Below are positions 4,429 through 64,000 of a stretch of DNA of 64,000 nt, piece after piece. The stretch is taken from positions 1 to 64,000 of the forward strand of contig NZ_FNRL01000014.1 in the NCBI RefSeq assembly GCF_900107795.1, read 5' to 3'. This DNA comes from Chitinophaga terrae (ex Kim and Jung 2007). Lineage in GTDB: Bacteria > Bacteroidota > Bacteroidia > Chitinophagales > Chitinophagaceae. Made by a program: the position numbers and the translations under genes. Position 1 is the first letter of the stretch, and each line of letters opens with the position of its first letter. The notes beneath the pieces were generated by a model. It saw nothing but the letters and a program-made list of their open reading frames with translations, was not told where the DNA came from and did not search any database.

Positions 4429-4470
4429 TTTCTCGCAAAGCCGCAAAGGAAGTGAGGCCGCATAAGGCTC
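4429..4470 (+). repeat. Solo repeat arm (CGCAAAG family)
   Basis: The segment begins TTTCTCGCAAAGCCGCAAAG and continues to GCATAAGG. It aligns with the arms at 51198, 53946, 54183, 30340, 30522, 62678 and 63179, all close to TTYCNCGCARAGNNGCARAG. No matching inverted arm is visible before the next gene, so it is a single or decayed copy. Its outer end faces the pabC-like start codon. Confidence 0.6.
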
Positions 4471-30339: not shown

Positions 30340-30538
30340 TTTCACGCAGAGAGGCAAAGGAAAGCAAAGAGGCATAAGAAATATTTTTAAGGAAAATAAG
30401 AAAGCAAAGGGAGCGAAAAATGTTATGTTATATAACACGATCATCGCTCCCTTTGCCTCTTAAAATCCGCTTCGGTCCAAAATCTTTTGCTTCTTTGCTC
30501 CTTTTTGCGTCTCTGCGGGAAACCCCTCTGCGGGAAAC
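30340..30538. repeat. Nested palindromic repeat downstream of kup (CGCAAAG family)
   Basis: The outer left arm starts TTTCACGCAGAGAGGCAAAG at 30340; the outer right arm, read on the minus strand from about 30522, starts TTTCCCGCAGAGACGCAAAA, an imperfect match. Inside lies a perfect 13-bp inverted repeat (GCAAAGGGAGCGA at 30404-30416 with 30444-30456). The CTCTGCGGGAAAC end is duplicated in tandem (to 30538). The right end is 6 bases from the kup stop codon. The arrangement and much of the sequence match the element at 53946-54183. Confidence 0.8.
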
Positions 30539-49891: not shown

Positions 49892-51169
49892 TTACTCGTA
49901 TCTTAAAGCAATAATAGGATCCAACCTGGAAGCCTTATAGGCAGGATAAAGCCCCGATCCCAGCCCTACCATTGCGCAAAGGGTTACGCCAACAAAGATC
50001 CAGGCCCAGGGGATGATAAATGGGGAACTAAGCAGCAGGGAAACAACATTGCCCAGCAGCATTCCGGCAAGTATGCCAACGATACCGCCCATTAAACTGA
50101 TGATGGTTGCCTCGTATAGGAATTGGGTGCGAATGACTTTTTTAGTGGCGCCAAGGGCTTTGGTAACGCCAATCTCCCTGGTGCGTTCGGCTACAGATAC
50201 CAGCATAATGTTCATTAAACCAATGGCCGAACCAAAGAGGGTGATAAAGGCAATAACAATAGCCAGCAGGTTCACCTTTCCAAGGCTGGCAAAAAGCATT
50301 TCTGCTATACTATCGCTGCGGCTGATCTCGAAATTATCTGCTTCATTCAATGAAAGTCCCCTGATAATCCTGAATAAGCCGGTGGCTTCGCCCTGCGCCG
50401 CATCCATCTGTTTTACATCATTTACAGCAATACCTATCTGGTAACTGGTATTCCTGTTAAATATTCTTCTTACGTTATTCACAGTAGTGATCACCACGTT
50501 ATCGGCGCTCATCATTTTGCTGCTGCCTTTAGACGCGAGCAAACCTATAACACGGTAACGTACATCGCCTACTCTCACAGTATTGTTTACTACATTCTTC
50601 TTGTCTTTACCAAACAATTTTTCCGCAACATCTTGTCCCAGTATCGCAACATTTCTTCCGCTTTGTACATCAAGCGCATTAAAGTTGCGTCCTTCAGCAA
50701 TCTCGTAGTTGGAGAACTGCAGGTAGTTCTCATCTCCGCCATAAACCCTCACATTGGGATTGGTCTTCTTTGCATCTTTATACACCGTTGCAATACCTGT
50801 AGCCTGTTGGGAAAGGCTGACGATGGCCGGAAACTTAAAACGTTCTTTAAAGGCCAGCGCTTCCTGGTAAGTGATCTGTTTATTACTGATAGAATGCCTT
50901 ACTTTTTTCTTGTCCCTCTTATTCCCTTTGGATGCTTTGTTTCCACCATCATCCATTCTCACCTGCATGGCCTTATTACGGATAGAAAAGCTGTTAACGC
51001 CCATGCTTGCAAAACTGCTGTAGATGCTTCCCTTCATGCTGTCGATAGCCGTAAGAATGCCTACCAGAACAGTGATACCCAGGGCAATAATGGAAACAGT
51101 AAGCCCGGATCTCAGTTTATTGCTGGAAACAGAACGGTATGCCAGGGAGAAGATATCTTTTTTCTGCAT
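49892..51169 (-). CDS. MacB-type ABC transporter permease
   Basis: This 425-residue protein has one N-terminal membrane helix (GLTVSIIALGITVLVGILTAI), a MacB-like periplasmic domain (about 45-280, with NVRVYGGDENYLQFSNYEIAEGR, NVAILGQDVAEKLFG) and three C-terminal helices of FtsX type (AIGLMNIMLVSVAERTREIGVTKALGA; ending LYPAYKASRLDPIIALRYE). Such proteins move peptides, lipoproteins or toxins through mechanotransmission with an ATPase. No ATPase gene is adjacent, which is notable. A repeat arm lies 28 bases upstream of its start. Confidence 0.88.
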   Translation of the reverse strand: MQKKDIFSLAYRSVSSNKLRSGLTVSIIALGITVLVGILTAIDSMKGSIYSSFASMGVNSFSIRNKAMQVRMDDGGNKASKGNKRDKKKVRHSISNKQITYQEALAFKERFKFPAIVSLSQQATGIATVYKDAKKTNPNVRVYGGDENYLQFSNYEIAEGRNFNALDVQSGRNVAILGQDVAEKLFGKDKKNVVNNTVRVGDVRYRVIGLLASKGSSKMMSADNVVITTVNNVRRIFNRNTSYQIGIAVNDVKQMDAAQGEATGLFRIIRGLSLNEADNFEISRSDSIAEMLFASLGKVNLLAIVIAFITLFGSAIGLMNIMLVSVAERTREIGVTKALGATKKVIRTQFLYEATIISLMGGIVGILAGMLLGNVVSLLLSSPFIIPWAWIFVGVTLCAMVGLGSGLYPAYKASRLDPIIALRYE

Positions 51170-51197
51170 ATAAATGGGTTCTTGCTAAAGGTAAATA

Positions 51198-51245
51198 TTT
51201 CTCGCAAAGCGGCAAAGTTGGCGAGGGAGCATGAGAAGTTTTTTT
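51198..51245 (+). repeat. Solo repeat arm (CGCAAAG family)
   Basis: TTTCTCGCAAAGCGGCAAAG is nearly identical to the arm at 4429 and continues with GAGGGAGCATGAG. No inverted partner is seen up to the GH71/99-like stop. Its outer end faces the start codon of the ABC permease. Confidence 0.6.
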
Positions 51246-51282
51246 GCAGAAGGAAGAAATTTTTACGACTGCAACAAAGAAA

Positions 51283-51308
51283 AGACCGGCCCCCTCTCTG
51301 GCCGGTCT
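51283..51308 (-). terminator. Intrinsic terminator of the GH71/99-like gene
   Basis: A perfect 9-bp stem (AGACCGGCC at 51283-51291 with 51300-51308), 8-nt loop, is followed on the minus strand by CTTTTCTTTG. It lies 33 bases past the stop codon. Confidence 0.78.
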
Positions 51309-51341
51309 GTATAGTTTGATAATACTGTTGGTTAAGCTGTT

Positions 51342-53036
51342 TCAGGGCGCCTGGAAGATCCATTGCTGGTTATTTCCGCCGTTGCTTCCGCCCTGCTGAA
51401 CAGTAGCGCCGGCCGATGTGGATGCGCCGGCGATCTCCATCAACATGCCGCTCCTCGCAACCTGTATGGTATAATACCCGTTTGTAGTGGGTGCGATGAT
51501 CCATGTCTGGTTATCATTTCCTGTATAGTCATACAATTGAACCGGGGCGCCATGAAGCAGGGAATTATCTTTAACATCCAGGCTGCGGTTACTCTGCACT
51601 CCAACGATCTTATACCGGTTATTGCCAATATTGGTAAGGATCCAGCGTTGGTTATTTCCACCGCTGTAGGTCCATTGCTGGATGCGCGTACCATTAGCGG
51701 TACCCTGGTTCTGTGCGTCCAGGGCCAGACCGCTTCCCCGGTTAATGATCTTATAAGTACCGTTAGCCGGCAGGGTAAGGGTAAAAGGGGTTGTATGAGC
51801 AGCCTGGTAAGACGCCTGTTGTTTTACCATCCGGATACCGTCTTTCACCAGCCGCAGGTAGAAATCGGAAGATACATGTACTCCGTCTGCATCCAGCGGC
51901 AGAAAATAATTTCCCGCCGGCTGCATTGATACATCTTCCGCTGTTTTGAAAATAGAAGTGGCTTCATTCAGCTCATCAAACATCGCGATGTAGAGATTAT
52001 GCACGCCAGCGTTGCGCATGCCGGCGAACATAGACCACATGAAATCGCCGTGGTTGCGCGGAATTTCATTTTTAGGCTTGGCGGTATTGGAGTTATTAAA
52101 GGCAAACCCGGGATAGCAGCAGGCCTGGTAATCAATATTCCTGGCACTGCACCAGGCAAGGTCGCTGACATACGATGCCTGGAAGTTGCTGCGTTTGCCC
52201 ACGAACCAAGGCATGATCATATCCAATGCTTCATATGCAGCACGGTATACAGTATCTGTACTGAAGTTTCCGGGAGTTCCCCCGATCACATAACAGCCCT
52301 GCGATTTAAACCAGTTGATCTTTGCTAGCCAATCAGCTACCGGCCCGCGACCTGAGAAACCGATTCCCCAGAAACAAACCACCGGCTTGCCATTTTGCCT
52401 GGCATATGCAGGAGAAGAAATGAGATTCTGTGCGCCAACAATGGTATTAGTCCAGTCGGCTTCCATAGGACTGTTCCCATTGCAATCGTACATGATGTAG
52501 AATTTAAGTCCATAGGTCTGCGCAGCATTCATCATCAGCAATGAAATACCATCCCGTTGCTGTTTTAACACCGTTCCCGGTACTACATTACTGCCAAATC
52601 GCTGCAGGGCTGCACAATCGATACCGCTTTGCTTCATCCATAATACATGCGTGTTCATCACCTGTTGATCATAACTGCTGAACATCTTTGCCGGCTGACC
52701 ATTCCCAAGATTGCCATAAAAATTTGGTTGTGTAACTGCAGCCTGGCTGAAGTTGCTGCCGGCATAAGTGGTTTTATACTCTCTTACATCCGGCCACATT
52801 TCCAGGTTCTGATGTTGCCAGGAATTTAACGGGGAACCGTCGCCCGCCGCCGAAAACCATCCCTGGTAGCCTACTACCGCCTTGCCTACCACATCGCCAT
52901 CAGGCGATAAAGCAGCAGTAATATGCATGCTCTTCTGACCAGTGAGTGGGTCAAGCGTGGAATTTTGCCGGGATTTGGAGCAACTGCTGATAACGATCAG
53001 CGCCACAAAGAAAACAGATAGCCATATTTTTTTCAT
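51342..53036 (-). CDS. GH71/99-like glycoside hydrolase lipoprotein with ricin-type lectin domain
   Basis: This 564-residue protein starts with a lipoprotein signal (ending VISSC). Residues about 50-400 look like a GH71/GH99-type barrel: VVGYQGWFSAAGDG, MYDCNG, PVVCFWGIGFSGRGP, ALDMIMPWFVG, IAMFDELNEATSIF. A C-terminal ricin-type beta-trefoil (about 425-564) has three QxW repeats (NNQRWILTN, DNQTWIIAP, NNQQWIFQA). The likely role is binding and cutting of alpha-mannan or alpha-glucan outside the cell. Upstream on the minus strand TACATTTG (53130-53123) may be its -7 element, and TTGCAGGGGCCTGCAA (53055-53070) is a near-perfect palindrome in its leader. Confidence 0.82.
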   Translation of the reverse strand: MKKIWLSVFFVALIVISSCSKSRQNSTLDPLTGQKSMHITAALSPDGDVVGKAVVGYQGWFSAAGDGSPLNSWQHQNLEMWPDVREYKTTYAGSNFSQAAVTQPNFYGNLGNGQPAKMFSSYDQQVMNTHVLWMKQSGIDCAALQRFGSNVVPGTVLKQQRDGISLLMMNAAQTYGLKFYIMYDCNGNSPMEADWTNTIVGAQNLISSPAYARQNGKPVVCFWGIGFSGRGPVADWLAKINWFKSQGCYVIGGTPGNFSTDTVYRAAYEALDMIMPWFVGKRSNFQASYVSDLAWCSARNIDYQACCYPGFAFNNSNTAKPKNEIPRNHGDFMWSMFAGMRNAGVHNLYIAMFDELNEATSIFKTAEDVSMQPAGNYFLPLDADGVHVSSDFYLRLVKDGIRMVKQQASYQAAHTTPFTLTLPANGTYKIINRGSGLALDAQNQGTANGTRIQQWTYSGGNNQRWILTNIGNNRYKIVGVQSNRSLDVKDNSLLHGAPVQLYDYTGNDNQTWIIAPTTNGYYTIQVARSGMLMEIAGASTSAGATVQQGGSNGGNNQQWIFQAP

Positions 53037-53260
53037 GAAAAAGGGTTTTATTAGTTGCAGGGGCCTGCAACCGGATCATAAAATGGAATTTGCACAGAGG
53101 GCCCAAACAGTCTTATCAGTTTCAAATGTATCCGGGAGGCATTAACAAACCGCATAATATTTGTGATAACAAGAGGAAGAAAAACAAAAATATTCTTCTT
53201 TAACCCGGCAACCTTGTTCTGTTATTCCCTTACCCTATTTCACTTCTCAAGCATTTGGAT

Positions 53261-53518
53261 ATGAACACAACAGACATTACTATTTACATCGACAACAAGC
53301 CCTACCGGTTCCATGTAAAAGTGGACCAGGAAAATGACTCCACGACTTATTCCGTTTCTTCCGCAGAGGAAGCGAATGCAGCGGCTGATTTCATACCCGA
53401 CCACCTGGAGTTTAATGTAGACGGCTCAATACAGGTAAAAGAACGGTTGAAAACAGTGGAGCAGGAACAGATAGCTAGGCTCATCTGGCAGGAAATACTC
53501 GACAAAATGAACCCGTAA
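53261..53518 (+). CDS. Small hypothetical protein
   Basis: This 85-residue acidic protein (MNTTDITIYIDNKPYRFHVKV...IARLIWQEILDKMNP) starts at the first ATG; a TTG two codons earlier is less likely. No signal peptide, membrane segment or known motif is seen. It resembles small conserved cytosolic proteins with a single beta-hairpin and a C-terminal helix. Function is unknown. It stands alone between divergent and downstream genes, 40 bases before a secreted-protein gene in the same direction. Confidence 0.6.
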   Translation: MNTTDITIYIDNKPYRFHVKVDQENDSTTYSVSSAEEANAAADFIPDHLEFNVDGSIQVKERLKTVEQEQIARLIWQEILDKMNP

Positions 53519-53558
53519 CAGGCTGTAATTTCTTAGTACAAACCTTAATTAAATTATT

Positions 53559-53948
53559 ATGAAAGCGACTCATTTTATTACCGCTTGCTGGATATCGGCG
53601 CTTCTGCTGCTTTCAGCCACTTCCCGGGCCCAGGATAATGAACGGCCTATGCATCACCAGATGCACCAAAAAATAGATGCCAAATCCTTGACCGACAGCA
53701 TGAAAACAAGACTCTCGCTTACCGCCGAGCAATACCCTAAAGTGCTTGCCATCAACCAGAACTTTATTGATGGTATCTCCAAACTCAAAGACACTCCAGC
53801 TACCGACAGCACTGCGGCAGGCGCACAGGTAAAGACATTGTCTGAAAACCGCGATGCTGAATTAAAAAAAGTACTGACAAACGAACAATACACTACCTAC
53901 CAGGAACAGAAACAGCGAATGATGCATAAGACAAAAAAACACCAGTAG
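53559..53948 (+). CDS. Small secreted helical protein, paralogue of the one at 47017
   Basis: This 129-residue protein has a signal peptide (cleavage near SRAQ) and a mature, mostly helical part: a Met/His-rich start (MHHQMHQK), LSLTAEQYPKVLAINQNF and LTNEQYTTYQEQKQRMMHK. The Met/His-rich ends could bind metal ions, which is inference. The pattern resembles LTxxQ (Spy/CpxP-like) proteins. The stop codon TAG directly touches the left arm of the large palindrome at 53946. Confidence 0.65.
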   Translation: MKATHFITACWISALLLLSATSRAQDNERPMHHQMHQKIDAKSLTDSMKTRLSLTAEQYPKVLAINQNFIDGISKLKDTPATDSTAAGAQVKTLSENRDAELKKVLTNEQYTTYQEQKQRMMHKTKKHQ

Positions 53949-54183
53949 TTTCACGCAAAGGCGCAGAGGTGTGCAAAGAGGCATAAGGATTTTTTTTAAG
54001 ATAGTAAGAAAGCCAAGACATAAATCTTTTTTAAGGAAATAATAAGAAAACAGAGAGGCGAAGATTGCTGCATAACACAATCTTCGCCTCTCTGTTTTCT
54101 TATTTGATCACTTATGATTACTTATTTCACTTAAAAAAATCCTTATGCCTCTTTGCACACCTCTGCGCCTTTGCGTGAAACTA
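53946..54183. repeat. Large nested palindrome joining two convergent stop codons (CGCAAAG family)
   Basis: The outer arms (53946-54000 and 54130-54183, 55 and 54 bases) are inverted copies that differ by a single T; they begin with the TAG stop of each flanking gene followed by TTTCACGCAAAGG. An inner perfect 27-bp inverted repeat (54041-54067 with 54078-54104) has a 10-base loop. The sequences between arms and core differ. The element resembles the one at 30340. It can form very stable RNA hairpins on either strand and may serve as a bidirectional terminator. Confidence 0.92.
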
Positions 54184-55554
54184 CAACCAGCAGAGGAGGA
54201 AGTTTGGCGCCAGGCCCAGTGCCAGCACGAGAAGGATGGTCAGGATCAGGCCAGCTTTGAAGCCGCCGGATACGGGTACTACTTCCGGATCGCCTTGTTT
54301 GAAGTACATGGCCATGATAACCCTGAAATAATAGTATACGCTTACCGCCGCGCAAAGTACTGCTACGATCACCAGCCAAAGTAACTGGCCGTGCTGGATA
54401 GCGGCAGACAATACAAAGTATTTTGCGAAGAAGCCTGCAGTTACAGGAATACCGGCGAGAGAGAACAGGCATACTGCCACAGTGAAGGCGAGTAATGGTT
54501 CTTTGCGGGCCAGGCCGTTGAAGCCTTCGAAGGTATAGTCTTTCAGTTTCATTAATACGGCGAAGATGCCGATAGTAGCGATGCTATAAGCGGCTGCGTA
54601 CAACACGATACCCTGAGCGCCCAGGTTGTTCAGTGAGATCACTGCAAACAGCATAAAACCTGCTTGTGCAATACTGGAGTAAGCCAGCATGCGTTTAACG
54701 CTTTGCTGGAATACGGCGCTTAAGTTACCCAGGATGAGGGTTGCCGCAGTAATGATAGAAAGGATCAGTGTCCAATGCTCGCTGATGTTGCCACCGGTAA
54801 AACTTACATGGAACAAACGGAGAAACGCGATAAATCCACCTGCCTTCACAACTGTAGACATGAAGGAAGTGAAAACGGTAGGAGAACCGTCGTAAACATC
54901 CGGTGTCCAGAAGTGGAATGGTACAGCAGATACTTTGAAAGACAATGCAAATACCAGCAGGATGATACCGCAGAGAGCCAGCGGATGGATCGGATCTGCG
55001 CCCAGGCCTAATTCAGAAATATTGAAAGAGCCTGCAGAACCGTAGATGAGGGTGATTCCCATCAGGAGGATACCTGTAGAGAAAGAACCCATGAGGAAGT
55101 ATTTCAGCGATGCTTCATTGCTCTTCAGGTTCTTTTTATCTGCGCCCGCCAGGATGTATTGCGGGATAGATAAGATCTCGATCGCCAGGAACAGCATCAG
55201 GAGGTTGCTGAAGCTGGAAGCCAGCGTGATACCTGCGAGTATAAAAAATATCAATGCAAAATAATCTGCTACATGCACTCCCACTTTTTCAAACTCGCTA
55301 CCTGATAAGAGGAAATATAACAAAGTAGCGCCTATGGCTACAGCATTGAATATTACACCGAATTTAGTCACTTCAATCATGCCATAAAGGATATATCCGC
55401 CATGTTCAACAGAAGGATATAAGGCCAGGTTAGCAATAAATGCTATGATGATGGCCGCGATGGCAAAAAATTTAATATGCTGCTTATTGCGTACAAGTAA
55501 TCCAACAAACATCATTACAACGCCCGACAAAGCAGTAGAAATTAGTGCATTCAT
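54181..55554 (-). CDS. nuoN: NADH:quinone oxidoreductase subunit N
   Basis: This 457-residue antiporter-like subunit of complex I has about 14 membrane helices, with SLKYFLMGSFSTGILLMGITLIYGSAG, the conserved lysine region SFKVSAVPFHFWTPDVYDG, and KRMLAYSSIAQAGFM. It forms part of the proton-pumping arm. It is the last gene of the minus-strand nuo operon, and its TAG stop abuts the right arm of the large palindrome. Confidence 0.94.
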   Translation of the reverse strand: MNALISTALSGVVMMFVGLLVRNKQHIKFFAIAAIIIAFIANLALYPSVEHGGYILYGMIEVTKFGVIFNAVAIGATLLYFLLSGSEFEKVGVHVADYFALIFFILAGITLASSFSNLLMLFLAIEILSIPQYILAGADKKNLKSNEASLKYFLMGSFSTGILLMGITLIYGSAGSFNISELGLGADPIHPLALCGIILLVFALSFKVSAVPFHFWTPDVYDGSPTVFTSFMSTVVKAGGFIAFLRLFHVSFTGGNISEHWTLILSIITAATLILGNLSAVFQQSVKRMLAYSSIAQAGFMLFAVISLNNLGAQGIVLYAAAYSIATIGIFAVLMKLKDYTFEGFNGLARKEPLLAFTVAVCLFSLAGIPVTAGFFAKYFVLSAAIQHGQLLWLVIVAVLCAAVSVYYYFRVIMAMYFKQGDPEVVPVSGGFKAGLILTILLVLALGLAPNFLLCWL

Positions 55555-55625
55555 ATTTTTGCGTTACAAAACCCCGTTACAAATTTTTTTGTTTTGATCA
55601 GACCGGTTTGATACTAAACTGATGA

Positions 55626-57062
55626 TCAAAATAATTTATTCACTACTTCAGTGGTATTGCTTACCAGCTCCAACATTGGTTGCGGGTAAACACCAAGCAC
55701 AAAGATCATGATCACGATCAGGCTCAATGCCAGCATTTCACCGGCTTTAAGATCTGTAGTAGTTGTTGTCAGCTCATTTTCCTGACCAAATATTACTTTC
55801 TGGATCATACCCAGGGTATATACTGCAGAAAGGATAATACCTAATCCGGCGAAAGCCATCATCCAGTGATTATATTGAAACAGCCCGCTGAACATCAGGA
55901 ACTCGCCAATGAAACCGTTGGTGAGTGGTAAGCCGATGTTAGCCATACTGATAATAACGAAGAAGATCGCCATACGAGGGGCTTTGCGTGCCATACCTCC
56001 CAGTTGCGCCATGTTCCGGATACCCAGGCGTTGTTCTATCACTTCAACAATGATCCACAATCCAATGATGTTGATACCGTGGTTGAACATCTGGATCAGG
56101 GCGCCCTGTAAGCTTTGTTCGTTGTTAGCGAAAACAGCGGCAGCCATCAGGCCGATGTGAGCGATGGAAGAGTAAGCGATCAACCGTTTCAGATCGCTTT
56201 GTACCATAGCAATGCAGGAACCGTAGATGATACCGATGATGCACAGTACAATGGCAACATCAGACCATACCATTACGCCATGAGGCAGTACCGGCAGCAA
56301 CCAGCGCAACAACCCGAATAAACCCATTTTAACCATTACGCCAGAAAGGATCATGGTAACAGGGGTTGGAGATTGTTCGTAGGTATCTGGCTGCCAGGTA
56401 TGGAATGGGAAGATCGGCATCTTGATAGCGAATGCTACAAAGAATAACCAGAAGAGCCAGGATTGCTGATCCTGCGACAGTTGCAGGGCTGAAAAAGATG
56501 CCCAGCTGAAAGAGTGGTCAGGCGTCTGGAAATAAAGGTAGATAATACCTACCATCATCAGCAGCGAACCCAGGAAAGTATAAACGAAGAACTTAAAGGT
56601 AACGGCTATACGTTTTTCATTCCCCCAGATAGAGCAGAGGAAATAAACAGGGATGAGGGCCAGTTCCCAGAAAATATAGAACTGCAAGGCATCGAATGCG
56701 GTAAAAACGCCCGTCAATCCGGCTTGCGCCAGTAACATCAAACCATAGAAACTACCTGGTTTTTCAAAACTACGACCATTGATCGTAATAAAAACAAGCA
56801 GAGAGGCAATCGCTGTAAGCAGGCAAAGCATCACCCCCATTCCATCTAACCCCACGCGAAACTGACTTCCCAGTTGCGGGATCCAGTTAGCTACAACATT
56901 CAGACTGTCGGGAGCAGTACGAAAACGGCACCAGGCACCGATTGCCAACACCACTGTTGCCAGCGATGAGATCATGCTTAGCACTTTTGGTCCGGATCCC
57001 TTCAGGCCAAATGTAATAAGGCCCGCGATGAGAGGAATCAATATTAATAAAACTGTCAACAT
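55626..57062 (-). CDS. nuoM: NADH:quinone oxidoreductase subunit M
   Basis: This 478-residue antiporter-like subunit has the motifs FYIFWELALIPVYFLCSIWG, FAIKMPIFPFHTWQPDTYEQSPTPV and RLIAYSSIAHIGLM. About 14 helices are present, consistent with complex I membrane-arm subunits M. It lies 33 bases after nuoL and about 70 bases before nuoN, in the same operon. Confidence 0.95.
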   Translation of the reverse strand: MLTVLLILIPLIAGLITFGLKGSGPKVLSMISSLATVVLAIGAWCRFRTAPDSLNVVANWIPQLGSQFRVGLDGMGVMLCLLTAIASLLVFITINGRSFEKPGSFYGLMLLAQAGLTGVFTAFDALQFYIFWELALIPVYFLCSIWGNEKRIAVTFKFFVYTFLGSLLMMVGIIYLYFQTPDHSFSWASFSALQLSQDQQSWLFWLFFVAFAIKMPIFPFHTWQPDTYEQSPTPVTMILSGVMVKMGLFGLLRWLLPVLPHGVMVWSDVAIVLCIIGIIYGSCIAMVQSDLKRLIAYSSIAHIGLMAAAVFANNEQSLQGALIQMFNHGINIIGLWIIVEVIEQRLGIRNMAQLGGMARKAPRMAIFFVIISMANIGLPLTNGFIGEFLMFSGLFQYNHWMMAFAGLGIILSAVYTLGMIQKVIFGQENELTTTTTDLKAGEMLALSLIVIMIFVLGVYPQPMLELVSNTTEVVNKLF

Positions 57063-57095
57063 AATTTATCTGCGCTTGTAACTTCAGCTATTGAT

Positions 57096-58991
57096 TTATA
57101 ATAAGAATCCGATCACAAATAAAACGATCATACCGATCACCATGGCGAAGATGTAAAATCCTACCTGTCCGCTCTGGATCAGGCGAACTTGTTGTCCTCC
57201 CCATTGAACGCCACGTCCGATGCCGTTTACCAGGCGATCGATACCCGCTTTTTCGATTGTATCGCGGAAGAAACGTGACAACTCATATAATGGTTTTACA
57301 ATGATCGCATCATAGATCTCATCTACATACCATTTGTTTTCCAGCGCCTTGCCCAGACCTGTAGATTCTTTGCCGGTATCTTCATAATTGGCAAATTTCT
57401 GACGGGCCAGTAAAATGAAAACGATCACGAGGGCGCTGCTGATACCCATCAATATCCATTCGAGGCTATGTGAAAGGTGATGAGGAACGGCAAATGGAAC
57501 AGAAGGTGCAAAAACAGGCGCGAGATATTCTGCCAGCAAGTTTTTACCAAATACTTCCGGCAAGCCTACATACCCGCCGATGATGGAAAGCACTGCCAGG
57601 ATTACCAGCGGAATGGTAATAGCAGCCGGGCTTTCATGAAGATGATGTTCCTGTTCGTGGGTACCACGGAACTTACCGGCAAACGTGATGTAATACAAGC
57701 GGAACATATAGAAAGCGGTCATTAATGCGCCGGCCAGGCCTAACACATAGAATACCGGGTTATGCCCGAAAGCTGAAGCAAGGATCTCATCTTTGGAGAA
57801 GAAACCTGAAAGGCCGGGAATACCAGCAATTGCAAGGCATCCAACGAGGAAAGTCCAGTTCGTGGTTGGCATATATTTTTTCAGGCCGCCCATTTTACGG
57901 ATATCCTGCTCGCCGCCCATTGCATGGATCACGGAACCGGAACCAAGGAACAACAACGCTTTGAAGAAAGCGTGCGTCATTACGTGGAAAACGGCAGCGC
58001 CATAAGCGCCAACACCTAATGCCAGGAACATATAACCTAACTGGCTTACAGTGGAATAAGCCAGTACTTTTTTAATATCGTTCTGTTTGAGTGCAATGGA
58101 AGCTGCAAACAGGGCAGTTGCCAGGCCAATTACAGCTACTACGGTTTGAATATGCGGCGCCAGCGTGTACAAGATATTGCTTCTTGCAATCATATAGATA
58201 CCGGCGGTAACCATTGTAGCGGCGTGGATGAGGGCAGAAACAGGAGTAGGACCCGCCATCGCATCCGGCAACCAGGTATAGAGCGGCAACTGGGCTGATT
58301 TACCGGTTGCGCCTACAAAGAGTAATAAAGCAATTGCAGTGATCACGCTGTTGTTCATACCCAGGGAAGCTGCTTTTGCAAAAACTTCAGGGAAGGTAAC
58401 AGAGCCGAATTGTGTGATCATGAAGAAGATAGCGATCAGGAAACCCAGGTCGCCGATCCTGTTCATAACAAACGCTTTCTTGGCTGCATTTGTATAATCG
58501 TTGTTCTTAAACCAGAACCCGATCAGCAGGTAAGAACACAAACCTACTCCTTCCCAACCGATGAACATCATCACGTAGTTGGCGCCTAAAACAAGGATCA
58601 GCATGGAGAACACGAAAAGGTTCAGGTATGCAAAATACCTGGCGAAACTTTCGCTGCTTTCTTCATGCATGTAAGAAGTAGAGTAAATATGAATGAGAGA
58701 ACCAACACCAGTGATGATCAGGAGGAACAATGCACTGAGTTGATCTACCTGGAAGGCAAAAGGAATATGCAGGGAACCTACATGAATAAAATCAAACAAC
58801 TGCACAACCTGCGCAGAGAATCCCGGGGCTTTAACCTCAAAGAATATTAATAAGCTAATCACAAAGGACGCCAGGAGAACGCCACTTCCAACTATTCCAA
58901 CCAAGGACTTGGATAAAGATCTGCGTCCTAATCCATTCACCAGGAAACCTAATAATGGTAAAAATGGTACCAGCCAAACTAGATTAATCAT
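57096..58991 (-). CDS. nuoL: NADH:quinone oxidoreductase subunit L
   Basis: This 631-residue subunit is the largest antiporter-like protein of the membrane arm. Motifs are SSESFARYFAYLNLFVFSML, FIGWEGVGLCSYLLIGFW, KSAQLPLYTWLPDAMAGPTPVSALIHAATMV and KKVLAYSTVSQLGYM. The long C-terminal lateral helix and the final transmembrane helix are represented by the last 100 residues. It starts at the first ATG, 55 bases after nuoK. Confidence 0.96.
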   Translation of the reverse strand: MINLVWLVPFLPLLGFLVNGLGRRSLSKSLVGIVGSGVLLASFVISLLIFFEVKAPGFSAQVVQLFDFIHVGSLHIPFAFQVDQLSALFLLIITGVGSLIHIYSTSYMHEESSESFARYFAYLNLFVFSMLILVLGANYVMMFIGWEGVGLCSYLLIGFWFKNNDYTNAAKKAFVMNRIGDLGFLIAIFFMITQFGSVTFPEVFAKAASLGMNNSVITAIALLLFVGATGKSAQLPLYTWLPDAMAGPTPVSALIHAATMVTAGIYMIARSNILYTLAPHIQTVVAVIGLATALFAASIALKQNDIKKVLAYSTVSQLGYMFLALGVGAYGAAVFHVMTHAFFKALLFLGSGSVIHAMGGEQDIRKMGGLKKYMPTTNWTFLVGCLAIAGIPGLSGFFSKDEILASAFGHNPVFYVLGLAGALMTAFYMFRLYYITFAGKFRGTHEQEHHLHESPAAITIPLVILAVLSIIGGYVGLPEVFGKNLLAEYLAPVFAPSVPFAVPHHLSHSLEWILMGISSALVIVFILLARQKFANYEDTGKESTGLGKALENKWYVDEIYDAIIVKPLYELSRFFRDTIEKAGIDRLVNGIGRGVQWGGQQVRLIQSGQVGFYIFAMVIGMIVLFVIGFLL

Positions 58992-59046
58992 TTATCAATT
59001 CTATTTACGACGACGAAAAATTCAATAGATCAGGGAATCCGAAATA

Positions 59047-59364
59047 TTAATTTTTCAACCTGTTAAGAATGTTAATATCTACTGAGTGTGTGTTTCTGTA
59101 GACCATAGTAATAATAGCCAGGCCGATTGCAACTTCAGCTGCGGCTACCACCATTATAAAAAATACGAACAGTTGCGCTGAGGAAGCATCTACTCTGCCG
59201 GCATCAGCCCACATTTTTGAGAAAGCAACCATTAAAAGGTTTACTGCATTCAGCATCAGCTCAATGCACATAAAGATTATGATCGCATTTCTGCGCATCA
59301 ATACACCCATCACACCTATACAGAATAAGGCGATACTCAGAAATATATAATATTGAACAGGCAT
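59047..59364 (-). CDS. nuoK: NADH:quinone oxidoreductase subunit K
   Basis: This 105-residue protein with three membrane helices has the conserved glutamates in FMCIELMLNAVNLL and VAAAEVAIGLAI, used for proton transfer. It starts MPVQYYIFLSIALFCIGVMG. A short ACGAATTAC-type repeat lies between it and nuoJ. Confidence 0.95.
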   Translation of the reverse strand: MPVQYYIFLSIALFCIGVMGVLMRRNAIIIFMCIELMLNAVNLLMVAFSKMWADAGRVDASSAQLFVFFIMVVAAAEVAIGLAIITMVYRNTHSVDINILNRLKN

Positions 59365-59405
59365 AAAATAAGTTACGATTTACGAATTACGAATGACTGT
59401 ATAAG

Positions 59406-59906
59406 CTAGTCTTCTTTCCTACCGATTACTACAGCTCCGATCATGGCGCTCAGGAACAGGATACTGCTCACTTCAAATGGAACTACATATTGTCTGAACA
59501 GCACCATACCCAGGTTATGTACAAGACCTATGTCGTTGTTTGCTGTACTCATTGCAGGCATGCTTGCATCGCGCAATGCAGCTACCAGTACAACCAGTAA
59601 CGCGCCTCCGCTGATGGCTCCCGCATACTTCAGCCAGTTACGTTTCTGTGGCTCCAATTCTGCGTTCAGGTTCATCAGCATCAATACATACAGGAACAAT
59701 ACCATGATGGCGCCTGCATAAACAATGATATGTACTACAGCAAGGAATTGAGCATTCATCATTACATAGTGGCCTGCTATGGCAAAAAATGTGACGATCA
59801 GGCATAATACGCTGGTCACAGGATTTTTACTCAACACAACCCCTAACGCTGAAGCCAGCGCAATCACCGACAGCACCATGAAAATTATTTGTTGGATACT
59901 TCCCAT
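59406..59906 (-). CDS. nuoJ: NADH:quinone oxidoreductase subunit J
   Basis: This 166-residue membrane protein has the NuoJ/ND6 pattern: NPVTSVLCLIVTFFAIAGHYVMMNAQFLAVVHIIVYAGAIMVLFLYVLMLMNL split over helices 2 and 3, including the pi-bulge VYAGAIMVLF. Five helices are visible. It lies about 40 bases after nuoI and 41 before nuoK. Confidence 0.94.
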   Translation of the reverse strand: MGSIQQIIFMVLSVIALASALGVVLSKNPVTSVLCLIVTFFAIAGHYVMMNAQFLAVVHIIVYAGAIMVLFLYVLMLMNLNAELEPQKRNWLKYAGAISGGALLVVLVAALRDASMPAMSTANNDIGLVHNLGMVLFRQYVVPFEVSSILFLSAMIGAVVIGRKED

Positions 59907-59946
59907 CTCTGCTTTTGTTTTTTAGCTAATGTGTGCTATAAATAAT

Positions 59947-60453
59947 TTATTTGTTCTGTGCTTTCGGATCTGGAATCAGCAAATCGTCTTTCCCGTAAAT
60001 AAATCCTTTACGTTGATAGTTTGCAGGTGCAAAGGTTTCTGACAGGTAAATTGCATCTTTAGGGCAGGCTTCTTCACAGAAACCGCAGAAAATGCAACGT
60101 AACATGTTGATCTCGTACCTTGCTGCATATTTTTCTTCCCTGTAGAGATGCTCTTCTCCCGGTTTTCTTTCAGCTGCCTCCATCGTGATAGCTTCAGCCG
60201 GACAAGCTACGGCGCATAAACCGCATGCTGTACATCTTTCACGTCCTTCTTCATCGCGGTTCAGAATGTGTAATCCACGGAACACCGGGCTAAACTCACG
60301 TTTTTGATCCGGGTAGCTCACTGTAGCCTTACGCTGGAAGATGTGCTTGAAAGTGATACCCATTCCTTTTGCAATAGCAGGAATGTATAACTTCTCTGCG
60401 AAAGTCATCGGCCGGCGATCGACCTGTTTTGCCCTGTTAGTTAATGCTTGCAT
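59947..60453 (-). CDS. nuoI: NADH:quinone oxidoreductase subunit I (two 4Fe-4S clusters)
   Basis: The start is placed at MQALTNRAKQVDRRPMTFAEK (168 residues); the open frame upstream to 60624 overlaps nuoH and has no homology. It has two ferredoxin-type cysteine motifs, CTACGLCAVACP and CIFCGFCEEACP, for clusters N6a and N6b that carry electrons from the peripheral arm to the quinone site. Its end (DDLLIPDPKAQNK) is basic and short. Confidence 0.95.
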   Translation of the reverse strand: MQALTNRAKQVDRRPMTFAEKLYIPAIAKGMGITFKHIFQRKATVSYPDQKREFSPVFRGLHILNRDEEGRERCTACGLCAVACPAEAITMEAAERKPGEEHLYREEKYAARYEINMLRCIFCGFCEEACPKDAIYLSETFAPANYQRKGFIYGKDDLLIPDPKAQNK

Positions 60454-60494
60454 AAATGCTTTATTTAAACCACCTGAGTGGAATGAATTAATAA

Positions 60495-61538
60495 TTAATG
60501 ATGTTTGAACAATTCTACTGCTCCTGTACCCAGCATATTCACCAACGCCAATGGAATTAACACTCTCCAACCCAGGCGCATCAGCTGGTCGTAACGGAAT
60601 CTCGGAACTGTCCAGCGCACCCACATAAAGAAGAAGATGAAGAGCAGCGTTTTTATGAACAATGCCACAAAGCCCAGTATAGTTACCATATTAGGAGATA
60701 GCCCCAGTTTATCCATCCATGGGAAGGCATAACCTCCGAAATACATGGTAGCCATTAAAGCCGAGCTGATAAACATATTGATGTATTCCGCAAACAGGAA
60801 GAAACCCAGTTTCATGGAAGAATATTCCAGGTGATAACCACCATTCAATTCGTTCTCCGCTTCCGGTAAGTCGAACGGTGCACGGTTACATTCTGCAAAC
60901 GCACATACCAGGAAAATGAAGAAGCCTAAAGGTTGGTAGCAAATGTTCCAGAGACCATGACGTTGCTGTTCAACGATCTCTTTCAGGCTCAGGGTACCTG
61001 TCAGCATCAGCAATGCGATCAGGGCCAATCCCATAGGCAGCTCGTAGGAGATGATCTGGGAAGCGGCACGAACAGAGGCCAGGAGGGAATATTTGTTATT
61101 GGATGCCCATCCACCCAGCATGATACCGTAAACACCCATACTTACAACTGCGAAGATGTAAAGGATACCGATGTTCACATCTGCCACCTGGAGAGAGATC
61201 TCGCGACCGGCTATGGTCAGGGTGTCGCCCCATGGAATTACAGCGCTGGTCATACAAGCCACCACCATGGCAATGGAAGGACCTAAAATGAAGAGGAAGC
61301 GGTTGGAGTTGGTAGGAATGATCTCTTCCTTGAAGAAGAGTTTACCACCATCTGCCAACGGCTGCAGCAGACCAGCCGGACCGGCGCGGTTAGGGCCTAA
61401 ACGATCCTGGATCCAGGCAGCCACTTTCCTTTCGCCCCAGGTAGCATACATCGCTACCACCAGGGAAAGCACCAGCACTACTGAAATCAGCAATAATTTC
61501 TCAATTAAAAAGAACCAATCTATGCTTAATAAGGTCAT
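60495..61538 (-). CDS. nuoH: NADH:quinone oxidoreductase subunit H
   Basis: This 347-residue membrane subunit forms the quinone-binding chamber with NuoB and NuoD. Typical motifs are YATWGERKVAAWIQDRLGPNRAGP, GLLQPLADGGKLFFKEEIIP, AFAECNRAPFDLPEAENELNGGYHLEYSSMKLGFF split over its loop region, and FIFFFMWVRWTVPRFRYDQLM. Eight helices are visible. It starts MTLLSIDWFFLIEKLLL, 26 bases after nuoG. Confidence 0.96.
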   Translation of the reverse strand: MTLLSIDWFFLIEKLLLISVVLVLSLVVAMYATWGERKVAAWIQDRLGPNRAGPAGLLQPLADGGKLFFKEEIIPTNSNRFLFILGPSIAMVVACMTSAVIPWGDTLTIAGREISLQVADVNIGILYIFAVVSMGVYGIMLGGWASNNKYSLLASVRAASQIISYELPMGLALIALLMLTGTLSLKEIVEQQRHGLWNICYQPLGFFIFLVCAFAECNRAPFDLPEAENELNGGYHLEYSSMKLGFFLFAEYINMFISSALMATMYFGGYAFPWMDKLGLSPNMVTILGFVALFIKTLLFIFFFMWVRWTVPRFRYDQLMRLGWRVLIPLALVNMLGTGAVELFKHH

Positions 61539-61564
61539 CTCCTTTTACGAATTACAATTACGAA

Positions 61565-62662
61565 TTACGATTTCTTTATAATAAAATCATCAGAATGAGC
61601 AGGTCCGTCGATCTTCGACAAATCTATTTCCGGCCTGTTCACCTGGCTTTCAGAGTGAATATCAAACAAGAGTTTTGGTTGTCTTCCATCCAATACTTCC
61701 ACCAGCGCATCTTTGGGTTTCACTGTATTTACGTAATGGCCCTGTGAGATAACGCTATGGCGGTCGATTTTCCTTGGTCCTTCAATTGTCCAATCGCTCT
61801 TCTCTTTCTTTTCGAAGCGGCATTCGTCGCAGATGAAGTTTTCCACCTCGCCGTATTTATCTTTTCTTGCAGTAACCCTGAACACTTCATCACCACGCAT
61901 CCACAATACTACTTTACCACAGCATTTAGGATTGCTGCAATTACGGTGTGCATCCACAGGTTTCAGGAACCAAACCCTGTTTTTGAAACGGAAAGTATTA
62001 TCTGTTAAAGCGCCTACAGGGCAAACATCAATTACGTTTCCTATGAAATCGTTATCTAAAGACTGTTTGATATAAGTACCTATTTCCGCCGCGTCTCCTC
62101 TTCCCAATACGCCATGTTCTCTTTTCTCGGTCAGCTGATCAGCGGTAAACACGCAACGGTAGCAAAGGATGCAACGCGTCATGTGCAATTTGATCTTGTC
62201 TCCCAGGTCTACTTTATCAAAAGTTCTGCGTTTAAATTCGTAACGGGTTGCATCGGCGCCGTGCTCATAGCTCAGGTCCTGCAGGTGACATTCGCCCGCC
62301 TGGTCGCAGATCGGGCAATCCAGCGGGTGATTAAGCAACAGGAATTCTACTACGCCTTTGCGTGCATCCAATACTTCCGGGGAAGTGATGTTAGCTACTT
62401 CCATACCATCCATTACAGTGGTACGGCAACTGGCTACCAGTTTAGGCATCGGGCGTGGATCAGCCTCAGAGCCTTTGGTTACTTTCACCAGGCAGGTACG
62501 GCATTTACCGCCGCTGCCTTCCAGTTTGGAATAGTAACACATGGCCGGCGGCACTACCTCTCCCCCAATCAACCGGGCCGCATTCAATATGGTTGTACCG
62601 GGTTCCACCTCTACTGAGATGTTATCGATTTTAACCTTAAACATTTTTTTATCCTCCGCCAT
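61565..62662 (-). CDS. nuoG: Short NuoG-like subunit (2Fe-2S / 4Fe-4S, no molybdopterin domain)
   Basis: I choose MAEDKKMFKVKIDNISVEVE (365 residues); a GGAGG-type sequence before the second ATG (62644) makes MFKVKI an alternative. The N-terminal plant-type ferredoxin domain (MCYYSKLEGSGGKCRTCLVKV) is followed by the His/Cys 4Fe-4S motif (DCPICDQAGECHLQD) and CILCYRCVFT...IDVCPVGAL. The chain ends soon after CDECRFEKKEK, so the large C-terminal molybdopterin-oxidoreductase-like domain of E. coli NuoG is missing, as in other Bacteroidota. A GxxExxY element lies between it and nuoF. Confidence 0.88.
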   Translation of the reverse strand: MAEDKKMFKVKIDNISVEVEPGTTILNAARLIGGEVVPPAMCYYSKLEGSGGKCRTCLVKVTKGSEADPRPMPKLVASCRTTVMDGMEVANITSPEVLDARKGVVEFLLLNHPLDCPICDQAGECHLQDLSYEHGADATRYEFKRRTFDKVDLGDKIKLHMTRCILCYRCVFTADQLTEKREHGVLGRGDAAEIGTYIKQSLDNDFIGNVIDVCPVGALTDNTFRFKNRVWFLKPVDAHRNCSNPKCCGKVVLWMRGDEVFRVTARKDKYGEVENFICDECRFEKKEKSDWTIEGPRKIDRHSVISQGHYVNTVKPKDALVEVLDGRQPKLLFDIHSESQVNRPEIDLSKIDGPAHSDDFIIKKS

Positions 62663-62677
62663 ATTATATGTTTTCTT

Positions 62678-63179
62678 TTGCCCGCAAAGCCGCAAAGAAG
62701 CAAAGCAGCAAAGTTTTATGTTTTATATTTGATTTACTATTCTTTTTATTCCGTCTTTAATAAGCGAAACGTTGAAATTGACCAGTAATCCCAACTTTAT
62801 ATTTGTCAGTTTTAAGTAGGTACGTACTTGTTTAAAATGCATATCCTTTAATTCTTCCACTGACTTTATTTCAACGATCACTTTATTGTCTACCAAAAGA
62901 TCTGCTCTAAATACCTTTTGAAGAACTGTGTTATCGTATACAACATTAAAAGCTTCCTGTCTTTTAACCTCACGTCCTCTTTTTATAAGCTCATAACTTA
63001 AGAGTTCTTCGTACACTGATTCAAATAACCCAGGTCCAAATTTAACATGTATAGCATAGCAAGCATCAACTATCTCCTTCGAGATAACATTTTCTATCAT
63101 GGATGAAATTTTATAAGGTTAACAATATTAGAAAATAAAAAATCTTTGCTTCTTTGCTTCTTTGCCCCTCTGCGTGCAA
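62678..63179. mobile_element. Putative GxxExxY-carrying element with 36-bp inverted terminal repeats
   Basis: The left arm (62678-62713, starting TTGCCCGCAAAGCCGCAAAG) and the right arm (63144-63179, starting TTGCACGCAGAGGGGCAAAG when read on the minus strand) agree at 31 of 36 positions and enclose one gene. The 502-base unit fills the gap between nuoF and nuoG; its right end touches the nuoF TAA stop. No target-site duplication is apparent and no transposase is present. Confidence 0.65.
62723..63100 (-). CDS. GxxExxY protein (PD-(D/E)XK nuclease-like)
   Basis: This 125-residue protein has the eponymous motif in GPGLFESVYEE (GLFESVY = GxxExxY), then RREVKRQEAFNVVYDN-like strands (sequence REVKRQEAFNVVYDN), FRADLLVDNKVIVEIKSVEEL with the D...EIK pattern of PD-(D/E)XK nucleases, and KQVRTYLKLTNIKLGLLVNFN. 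This family is scattered and often multicopy; its function is unknown. It is unrelated to complex I although it lies inside the nuo operon in the operon's direction, flanked by inverted repeats. Confidence 0.88.
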   Translation of the reverse strand: MIENVISKEIVDACYAIHVKFGPGLFESVYEELLSYELIKRGREVKRQEAFNVVYDNTVLQKVFRADLLVDNKVIVEIKSVEELKDMHFKQVRTYLKLTNIKLGLLVNFNVSLIKDGIKRIVNQI

Positions 63180-64000
63180 TTACGCGCCGGCAGGAACAGG
63201 GATCGGATCCGCGTAATGCGCGATACCGTAATTCCGTTTCTGAGACTCATCCGGGTTCAGCACATGCCACTCGAATTCGTCGCGGAAGTGACGGATAGCA
63301 GCGGCAACTGGCCATGCTGCAGCGTCTCCCAGCGGGCAAATGGTATTTCCTTCGATCTTGCGTTGGATATCCCACAGCAGGTCGATATCACTCATTTTTC
63401 CTTTTCCGTACTCGATATTGTGCAATACTTTTTTCATCCAGCCAGTTCCTTCACGGCAAGGGCTGCATTGGCCGCAGCTTTCGTGGTGATAGAAACGGGC
63501 GAAGGTGAGGGTGTTTCTAACGATACACTGGTCTTCATCCATGACAATAAAACCGCCGGAACCCAGCATTGAACCGGTTGCGAAGCCGCCGTCAGCCAAA
63601 CTTTCGTACGTCATCATACGGGTTTCGCCTTTTGCTGTTTTCAGCAGCAGGTTAGCAGGCAGTACAGGAACGGAAGATCCGCCCGGAATGCAGGCTTTCA
63701 GGCGTTTGTTATTCTTAATACCGCCGCAATATTCGTCAGAGAAAATAAATTCTTCTACAGAGATGTTCATTTCGATCTCGTAGACGCCTGGTTTGTTGAT
63801 GTTACCGCAGGCGGAGATCAGTTTGGTACCGGTAGATTTGCCTGTACCGAATTTAATATATTCATCTCCCCCGATGTTAATGATAGGTACTACGGCAGCC
63901 AGTGTTTCCACGTTGTTAACAACGGTTGGGCATTGCCATAATCCTTTTACTGCAGGGAAAGGAGGTTTAATACGGGGGTTGCCGCGTTTACCTTCCAGCG
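63180..64000 (-). CDS. nuoF: NADH:quinone oxidoreductase subunit F, C-terminal part (cut by the window edge)
   Basis: The reading frame is open to the right window edge, so about 273 codons of the C-terminal part are seen. It includes EGKRGNPRIKPPFPAVKGL, PTVVNNVETLA, SACGNINKPGVYEIEM, the GGSSVPVLPA loop, and the 4Fe-4S cluster motif ESCGQCSPCREGTGW, followed by CPLGDAAAWPV. NuoF binds FMN and NADH and starts electron transfer. Its TAA stop is directly followed by the repeat arm of the GxxExxY element. nuoE and the other peripheral genes should lie to the right. Confidence 0.95.
   Translation of the reverse strand, partial: LEGKRGNPRIKPPFPAVKGLWQCPTVVNNVETLAAVVPIINIGGDEYIKFGTGKSTGTKLISACGNINKPGVYEIEMNISVEEFIFSDEYCGGIKNNKRLKACIPGGSSVPVLPANLLLKTAKGETRMMTYESLADGGFATGSMLGSGGFIVMDEDQCIVRNTLTFARFYHHESCGQCSPCREGTGWMKKVLHNIEYGKGKMSDIDLLWDIQRKIEGNTICPLGDAAAWPVAAAIRHFRDEFEWHVLNPDESQKRNYGIAHYADPIPVPAGA

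Follow-up and report, generated by a model that had tools for sequence, protein, structure and literature searches.

The window, a stretch of 64,000 nucleotides from Chitinophaga terrae, carries near its end a gene for a GxxExxY protein enclosed by inverted arms between nuoF and nuoG. The features considered are given below, one to a line.

53945 to 54184, no strand: palindrome without a gene, belonging to the arm family of the unit, with 52-nt perfect arms
61565 to 62662, minus strand: nuoG, the downstream neighbour, from the open reading frame (ORF) list and profile matches
62678 to 62713, no strand: nuoG-side inverted arm (match extends to 62724), with four GCAAAG iterons at 62684, 62692, 62700 and 62708
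62723 to 63100, minus strand: GxxExxY gene, 125 amino acids, PD-(D/E)XK fold, matched by TIGR04256 and PF13366, AlphaFold2 mean pLDDT 94.1
63144 to 63179, no strand: nuoF-side inverted arm, with four minus-strand iterons, of which three are GCAAAG and one is GCAGAG
63180 to 63998, minus strand: nuoF, the upstream neighbour, from the ORF list and profile matches, running off the window

By hand count the two arms were identical at 31 of 36 positions, and an inverted-repeat tool returned a longer pair of 47 nt at 81%. The local score of the pair was 27.0, whereas 100 shuffles reached at most 12.0; together with the profile matches, this upholds the preliminary description of a GxxExxY gene within 36-base arms between nuoF and nuoG. 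Both arms consist of four 8-nt iterons GCAAAGNN facing inward, one iteron on the nuoF side reading GCAGAG. The nuoF-side arm does touch the nuoF stop codon, as had been claimed, since it ends at 63179 and the stop occupies 63180-63182, and the nuoG-side arm starts 15 nt past the nuoG start (62662). The whole unit measures 502 nt. It was described as lacking a transposase, and none was found inside it; Y1_Tnp, the sole transposase family searched genome-wide, was absent from the genome of the window (G000, 6.63 Mb). The neighbouring NuoG (window 61565-62662) is short, at about 366 amino acids, with a TIGR01973 match that covers positions 1-260 of 606 and falls below the cut-off.

The GxxExxY protein matched TIGR04256 with an E-value of 1.9e-40 and 137.8 bits (curated cut-off 35), and PF13366 (PDDEXK_3) with 5.6e-39 and 133.6 bits (curated cut-off 22). 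Among 80 named GxxExxY loci, 7 had a stop within the matched stretch and were set aside before alignment; 54 of the 73 stop-free proteins were aligned with the window protein and 12 proteins from the genus. In these 67 sequences the active-site residues D67, E77 and K79 were invariant, and E27, Q91 and Y95 were kept at 90% or more. The nearest solved fold to the AlphaFold2 model was Cas4 SSO0001 (4ic1; Foldseek E-value 5.3e-4), and the structural comparison gave Z 9.8 and rmsd 3.6 over 100 aligned residues. Among the matches listed, Cas4 alone exceeded Z 8, the next ones (Hjc and others) being tied near Z 7 and not diagnostic; a search of the PDB by sequence gave no match at E ≤ 1. The residues Q91xxxY95 presumably correspond to the QxxxY motif of Cas4/RecB-type nucleases. 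Those nucleases act on DNA ends, and an end-processing or conversion role for GxxExxY would fit the Cas4/RecB-like fold of the model. Unlike them, the protein has only 125 residues, shares 19% identity with 4ic1 and leaves its first 21 residues unaligned. The gene is under purifying selection in the three of nine gene pairs that were not saturated at silent sites (dN/dS 0.04-0.05); the other six were saturated.

The GxxExxY gene is present in a single copy in G000, and its arms are not confined to that copy. With up to one mismatch, the pattern GCAAAGNNGCAAAGNNGCAAAG occurred 62 times in forward and 57 times in reverse orientation, whereas the reversed control pattern occurred in neither; among the matches listed, most were arranged as facing pairs, some being unpaired. 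Extraction gave 37 palindrome rows, the GxxExxY unit and 36 without a gene; the latter include two that overlap (L018) and a few with weak arms (L127, L137, L143), and amount to about 35 palindromes of 104-293 nt, mostly near-perfect. Some of the arms start with GTAG. Most arm copies in G000 belong to gene-less palindromes, and the unit is not a lone insertion. At the junctions of units and palindromes inspected, no target-site duplication was evident by eye. The window also contains, at 30346-30516, a worn pair of similar iterons, GCAGAGAGGCAAAG, that face each other, probably a decayed palindrome, and lone iteron arms at 4435-4448 and 51204-51217, each with two GCAAAG units and no facing partner.

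Placement of the palindromes was assessed by crude ORF calls, by which 33 were classified and 3 further rows lay at locus edges. Of the 48 sides facing gene 3' ends, 36 were within 15 nt of the stop, versus 4 of 18 on 5' sides, and 17 of the 33 classified palindromes lay between convergent genes, versus 1 of 23 window gaps of at least 60 nt. No G000 palindrome was inside an ORF of 100 or more amino acids. In the window, the palindrome at 53945-54184 fills a convergent spacer from stop to stop, between the ORF at 53559-53948 (plus strand) and that at 54181-55554 (minus strand), which is nuoN by its operon place. Such placement would be expected if the palindromes were RNA structures under stem selection (long bidirectional terminators, mRNA 3' ends or IVS-like RNase III segments) with little mobility, GxxExxY binding or cutting RNA. 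We consider this explanation unlikely. A terminator core, GCGRAGA...TCTYCGC, was tried as a general palindrome part and rejected, being found in only 7 of the 37 G000 rows; further evidence on both sides came from the comparison of palindromes between genomes, given below. An RNA-family search of window 50000-64000 found nothing that reached the gathering score, and the palindrome at 54.0-54.1 kb matched seven microRNA models below threshold.

GxxExxY was found in 19 of 60 congeneric genomes, at nuoF-nuoG in 12, at a second shared site in 6 and at a third place in 1 (G001); G011 has an additional broken copy at the second site. The nuoF-nuoG spacer measured 527-743 nt in the 12 unit-bearing genomes and 36-134 nt in the other 48, so the unit is either there or missing as one block, as the preliminary description anticipated. 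Its opposing outcome, all relatives alike and no arms elsewhere, did not occur. In three of the empty spacers (G039, G037 and G019) one decayed arm is apparently left, a reading made by eye. In 11 of the 12 nuo-site units the arms exceeded their own shuffles (L047 failed). At the seven GxxExxY genes outside nuo the arms were clear in three, marginal in L049 and failed in L032, L033 and L046; those of the fragment L050 also failed. The unit of G050 stands apart, with a protein 43% identical and another arm class; we take it to have arrived independently or by replacement.

Five of the 80 named loci, in Flaviaesturariibacter, Lacibacter and three Niabella, also have GxxExxY at nuoF-nuoG. Because the same gene occupies this place in other Chitinophagaceae genera, a recent insertion into the operon was rejected, and the unit is an old resident that has often been lost. 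The idea of a recent, lone insertion thus did not survive, gene-less palindromes being also the dominant form. Carriage by phages or plasmids was likewise rejected: with the window GxxExxY protein as sole query, there were 0 matches in 50,697 phage records and 7 in 72,556 plasmid records.

Beyond the genus, 78 of the 80 named GxxExxY loci were testable, 2 having flanks that were too short. Inverted arms were detected by score around 49 of the 78, in several phyla, compared with 1 of 614 random windows in the same loci and 0 of 400 in the genus stretches. The suggestion that other GxxExxY genes carry arms is supported in so far as they often do. Iteron pairs on both flanks were present at 33 loci, versus 0 of 610 random windows: 18 of 57 in Bacteroidota, 5 of 6 in Verrucomicrobia, 3 of 5 in Ignavibacteria and 7 of 10 in others (phyla assigned by hand from record titles). 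A sample of 296 genomes of the phylum contained 152 with GxxExxY at E ≤ 0.001, with a maximum of 12 copies per genome. The CGCNAAG iteron pattern CGCNAAGNCGCNAAGNCGCNAAG was found in 40 of the 296, and 37 of these 40 have GxxExxY (p = 3e-9), a figure that partly reflects the units' own arms. One named locus, L216, comes from a contig whose title names a Bifidobacterium breve MAG, and its GxxExxY groups with Flavobacterium in the tree; the record is probably mislabelled or contaminated.

The recurrence of GxxExxY with inverted arms in several phyla bears on the idea that the palindromes are classical MITEs which depend on a transposase from elsewhere in the genome, and that GxxExxY is cargo of one copy, since cargo would not be expected to recur in this way. 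The lack of evident target duplication also counts against it, and 8 of the 13 genomes with at least 10 GCAAAG matches, G000 included, lack Y1_Tnp, the one transposase family searched. The inverted ends, the many gene-less copies and the near-zero gaps that relatives have at a few sites (0, 7-8 and 15 nt) are what MITEs would leave, and a link of Y1_Tnp to GCAAAG matches was present in weak and non-significant form (5 of 12 versus 8 of 48 genomes, p = 0.07; within the clade of 25 described below, p = 0.39). We judge this explanation to be quite unlikely. A RAYT as the mover was rejected on the same p values, PF01797 being present in 12 of the 60 genomes and not in G000.

Arm class was compared with gene class across the 60 genomes, with pattern counts (GCAAAG, GATT and the others) to which tandem arrays and the arms of the unit itself contribute. 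Ten or more GCAAAG matches were present in 9 of the 12 nuo-site genomes, versus 4 of the 48 others (p = 8.5e-6, ignoring kinship), and ten or more GATT(N5) matches in 5 of the 7 genomes that carry the gene at another place, versus 1 of 53 (p = 2.2e-5, ignoring kinship). The crossed pairings of gene class and arm class were not significant (p = 1 and 0.48). The GATT cut-off is quoted at 10; at 4 or more the figure would be 6 of 7 but would count an array in G044, whose 8 GATT matches are one single site and that tandem array. In the operon tree, every genome with at least 10 matches of either class fell within one clade of 25 (support 99/99). Within this clade the fractions were 9 of 11 versus 4 of 14 for GCAAAG (p = 0.011) and 5 of 6 versus 1 of 19 for GATT (p = 0.0006), both again ignoring kinship. 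The gene-arm link holds inside the clade, and is weaker there than across the 60 genomes. In both sets, arm copies elsewhere in a genome track the gene.

Four contrasts between close relatives, chosen post hoc, point the same way. For GCAAAG these were G018 (171 matches) and G019 (21), G011 (100) and G055 (9), and G038 (253) with G044 (3) and G045 (4); for GATT, G002 (142) and G004 (56). There were exceptions. GCAAAG arms occurred without the cognate gene in G037 (36), G019 (21), G027 (49) and G039 (65), and GATT arms in G004 (56), while the gene was accompanied by few matches in G017 (1), G023 (4), G050 (1) and G001. GATT arms were clear around 3 of the 7 GxxExxY genes outside nuo, and G027 has 347 GATT matches, yet its own GxxExxY copy is without clear arms. 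Palindromes of any sequence numbered 1.0-13 per 100 kb in 8 genomes with the gene and 0-5 in 4 without; as a marker of the gene this density was rejected, since it separates the genomes poorly and other arm classes are present.

Nearly all of this signal lies in one clade, as it would if GxxExxY were an ordinary host repair or recombination nuclease, its arms incidental products of template switching at hairpins and the link a matter of common descent. Quasi-palindrome correction is a known process, and the purifying selection on the gene would suit such a role. We hold this account to be very unlikely, since the iterons are common to tens of sites and to several phyla, arm class goes with gene class even inside the clade of 25, and the CGCNAAG genomes have GxxExxY in 37 of 40 cases against 152 of 296 overall, the unit's arms contributing.

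Twenty-four gene-less palindromes have the full pattern in each of their arms, and in all 24 the four spacer letters agreed between the arms. Between arms of different units the agreement was 2.09 of 4, and none of 10,000 random re-pairings reached the observed total. The two arms of one palindrome change together; in the GxxExxY unit itself, two spacer letters differ between the arms. Positions were compared along three syntenic stretches (300 kb each from G029 and G042, 200 kb from G038). For palindromes of any class, 71 comparisons were shared, 14 absent and 11 unclear, and since the palindromes mostly keep their position, new insertions are rare.

The contents of these positions were less stable. 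At six sites, orthologous palindromes were 0.34-0.92 identical and their flanks 0.63-0.97, and in 7 of 17 cases a paralogue of the same genome matched at 0.78-0.94 (3 of 6 in G029, 4 of 5 in G038, 0 of 6 in G042). Orthologues were closer than paralogues at site 3 and, for G029 and G042, at site 4. Near-identical palindromes (0.94) occurred at different sites of G029, and at site 5 the arm class differed between genomes. In G044 and G045, both without the nuo-site gene (G044 has a second-site GxxExxY), several palindrome sites are occupied by a short terminator-like hairpin or by a different arm class. At one site a GCAAAG palindrome persists, in clear form in G045 and in worn form in G044. The 300-kb stretches of G042 and G029 (L161-L190) contain further arm classes, such as GATTTTTTGATTTACG and AATTACG palindromes, at places of GCAAAG ones in relatives.

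These comparisons cut both ways for RNA structures under stem selection. The agreement of arms within palindromes and the terminator-like hairpins of G044 and G045 would be in keeping with them; near-identical palindromes at different sites and the arm-class swap at site 5 are unexpected from stem selection alone.

The gene-bearing unit showed the same replacement in place. Between G042 and G029, flanks were 0.96 identical, the unit 0.74 and the protein 0.72, and the drop in identity ran from the nuoF stop to the far arm. For G022 and G016 the values were 0.93 and 0.92 for the flanks, 0.60 for the unit and 0.57 for the protein, and for G023 and G017 they were 0.89 and 0.94, 0.52 and 0.60. No identity drop over the unit was seen in the close pairs G042/G038 and G038/G011. 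The GxxExxY gene tree joins G016 with G017 (99/92), in conflict with the operon tree, which pairs G016 with G022 and G017 with G023. Contents have thus been replaced at fixed sites, in palindromes and gene-bearing unit alike.

The reading that we favour, at a probability of roughly 0.55, is a RAYT/REPIN-like system in which GxxExxY recognises the iteron arms and drives the copying or exchange of palindromes in trans. It starts from the observed arms, palindrome family and association of gene class with arm class. Within the family of iteron-ended palindromes, the unit would be the member that carries the gene, and GxxExxY, kept at a few fixed sites, would act in trans on its cognate iterons. 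Recognition and perhaps cutting of the arms by the protein would promote their copying or conversion; gene-less palindromes would spread to gaps that follow stop codons and be rewritten there, and the unit with the gene would likewise be exchanged in place. Such homing-like rewriting would leave positions fixed and contents uniform, and palindromes would decay where the gene is lost. We infer the binding and cutting of arms, and homing-like gene conversion as the copying route; decay presumably follows gene loss, not the reverse.

RAYT/REPIN systems combine a REP-associated tyrosine transposase with REP doublets, a REP being a short hairpin with a conserved tetranucleotide. The elements described here resemble them in having one kept gene between element ends, along with gene-less paired inverted repeats in intergenic gaps, and in that the number of dispersed elements follows the gene and fades where it is missing, with exceptions. 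Unlike RAYT/REPIN, they have no Y1 (HUH) transposase, PF01797 being unmatched in G000 and the unit's protein being PD-(D/E)XK (PF13366), and their arms are of 8-9-nt iterons, 36-80 nt long and apparently without the short REP hairpin. Because the test for the defining Y1 transposase was negative, we do not class them as RAYT/REPIN members. With MITEs, ERIC and Rickettsia palindromic elements the gene-less palindromes share short length, dispersal, inverted ends and the lack of a gene; they differ in iteron arms tied to a gene class and in conserved positions whose contents change. Homing endonuclease cassettes are similar in their in-place replacement with edges at the unit and in their nuclease-like protein, but here gene-less copies abound, and the target gap is not known to be cut. 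Taken together, the evidence points to a little-studied selfish or domesticated DNA element without its own transposase. The iteron palindromes are a candidate substrate for the GxxExxY family, open to direct genetic test, and if the favoured reading is true, RAYT/REPIN-type biology would extend to unrelated proteins.

A similar layout was found around genes of TIGR02436, an S23-type four-helix bundle, which were present in 22 of the 60 genus genomes and absent from G000. Of 36 matches, 30 had loci for the arm test, and inverted arms were present at 24 of these 30, built for the most part from short repeats with a different sequence; the iterons (L321-L350) were of AATTACG, TAGCTTTT and AAAGCATAAAGC types. 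Seven or more AATTACG matches were present in 17 of the 22 genomes with TIGR02436, versus 1 of the 38 without (p = 1.1e-9), and within the clade of 25 in 13 of 15 versus 1 of 10 (p = 0.0002). GCAAAG was not significantly linked to TIGR02436 (p = 0.07), and the link of AATTACG to GxxExxY was weak (p = 0.047). GxxExxY and TIGR02436 units likely share a strategy. The four-helix-bundle units are, to our knowledge, not nucleases. With the same layout in these non-nuclease units, cutting is less plausible as a general requirement of the arms.

PMC4990558 gives an intervening sequence of Coxiella 23S rRNA as 428 nt with a 28-bp stem and a small ORF. Our unit is like such rRNA intervening sequences in its length of a few hundred nucleotides (502 here), inverted ends and one small ORF, a resemblance that would also suit palindromes acting as RNA; unlike them, it sits between nuoF and nuoG and encodes another protein. 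The S23-type TIGR02436 genes of the genus do have iteron arms, and their layout could explain the origin of S23 ORFs in rRNA intervening sequences. In the accessible parts of the open-access literature, we found no description of such elements beyond that paper; the iteron strings, TIGR04256 and TIGR02436 were not found there, GxxExxY was named in two papers, once in each, and PF13366 in one. As a tentative extension, which we regard as possible but short of even odds, there may be a widespread group of palindromic elements without a transposase gene. Each class would be linked to a single small protein that the element itself encodes, the folds being unrelated (the PD-(D/E)XK GxxExxY or the S23-type four-helix bundle). 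The elements would spread and renew themselves through homing-like rewriting, in trans, of hairpins in the gaps behind genes, with the 23S rRNA intervening sequences as one branch. In G044, contig C3 contains a long tandem array of the 7-mer AATTACG at about 541432-541543, and much of the AATTACG count of G044 comes from this array.
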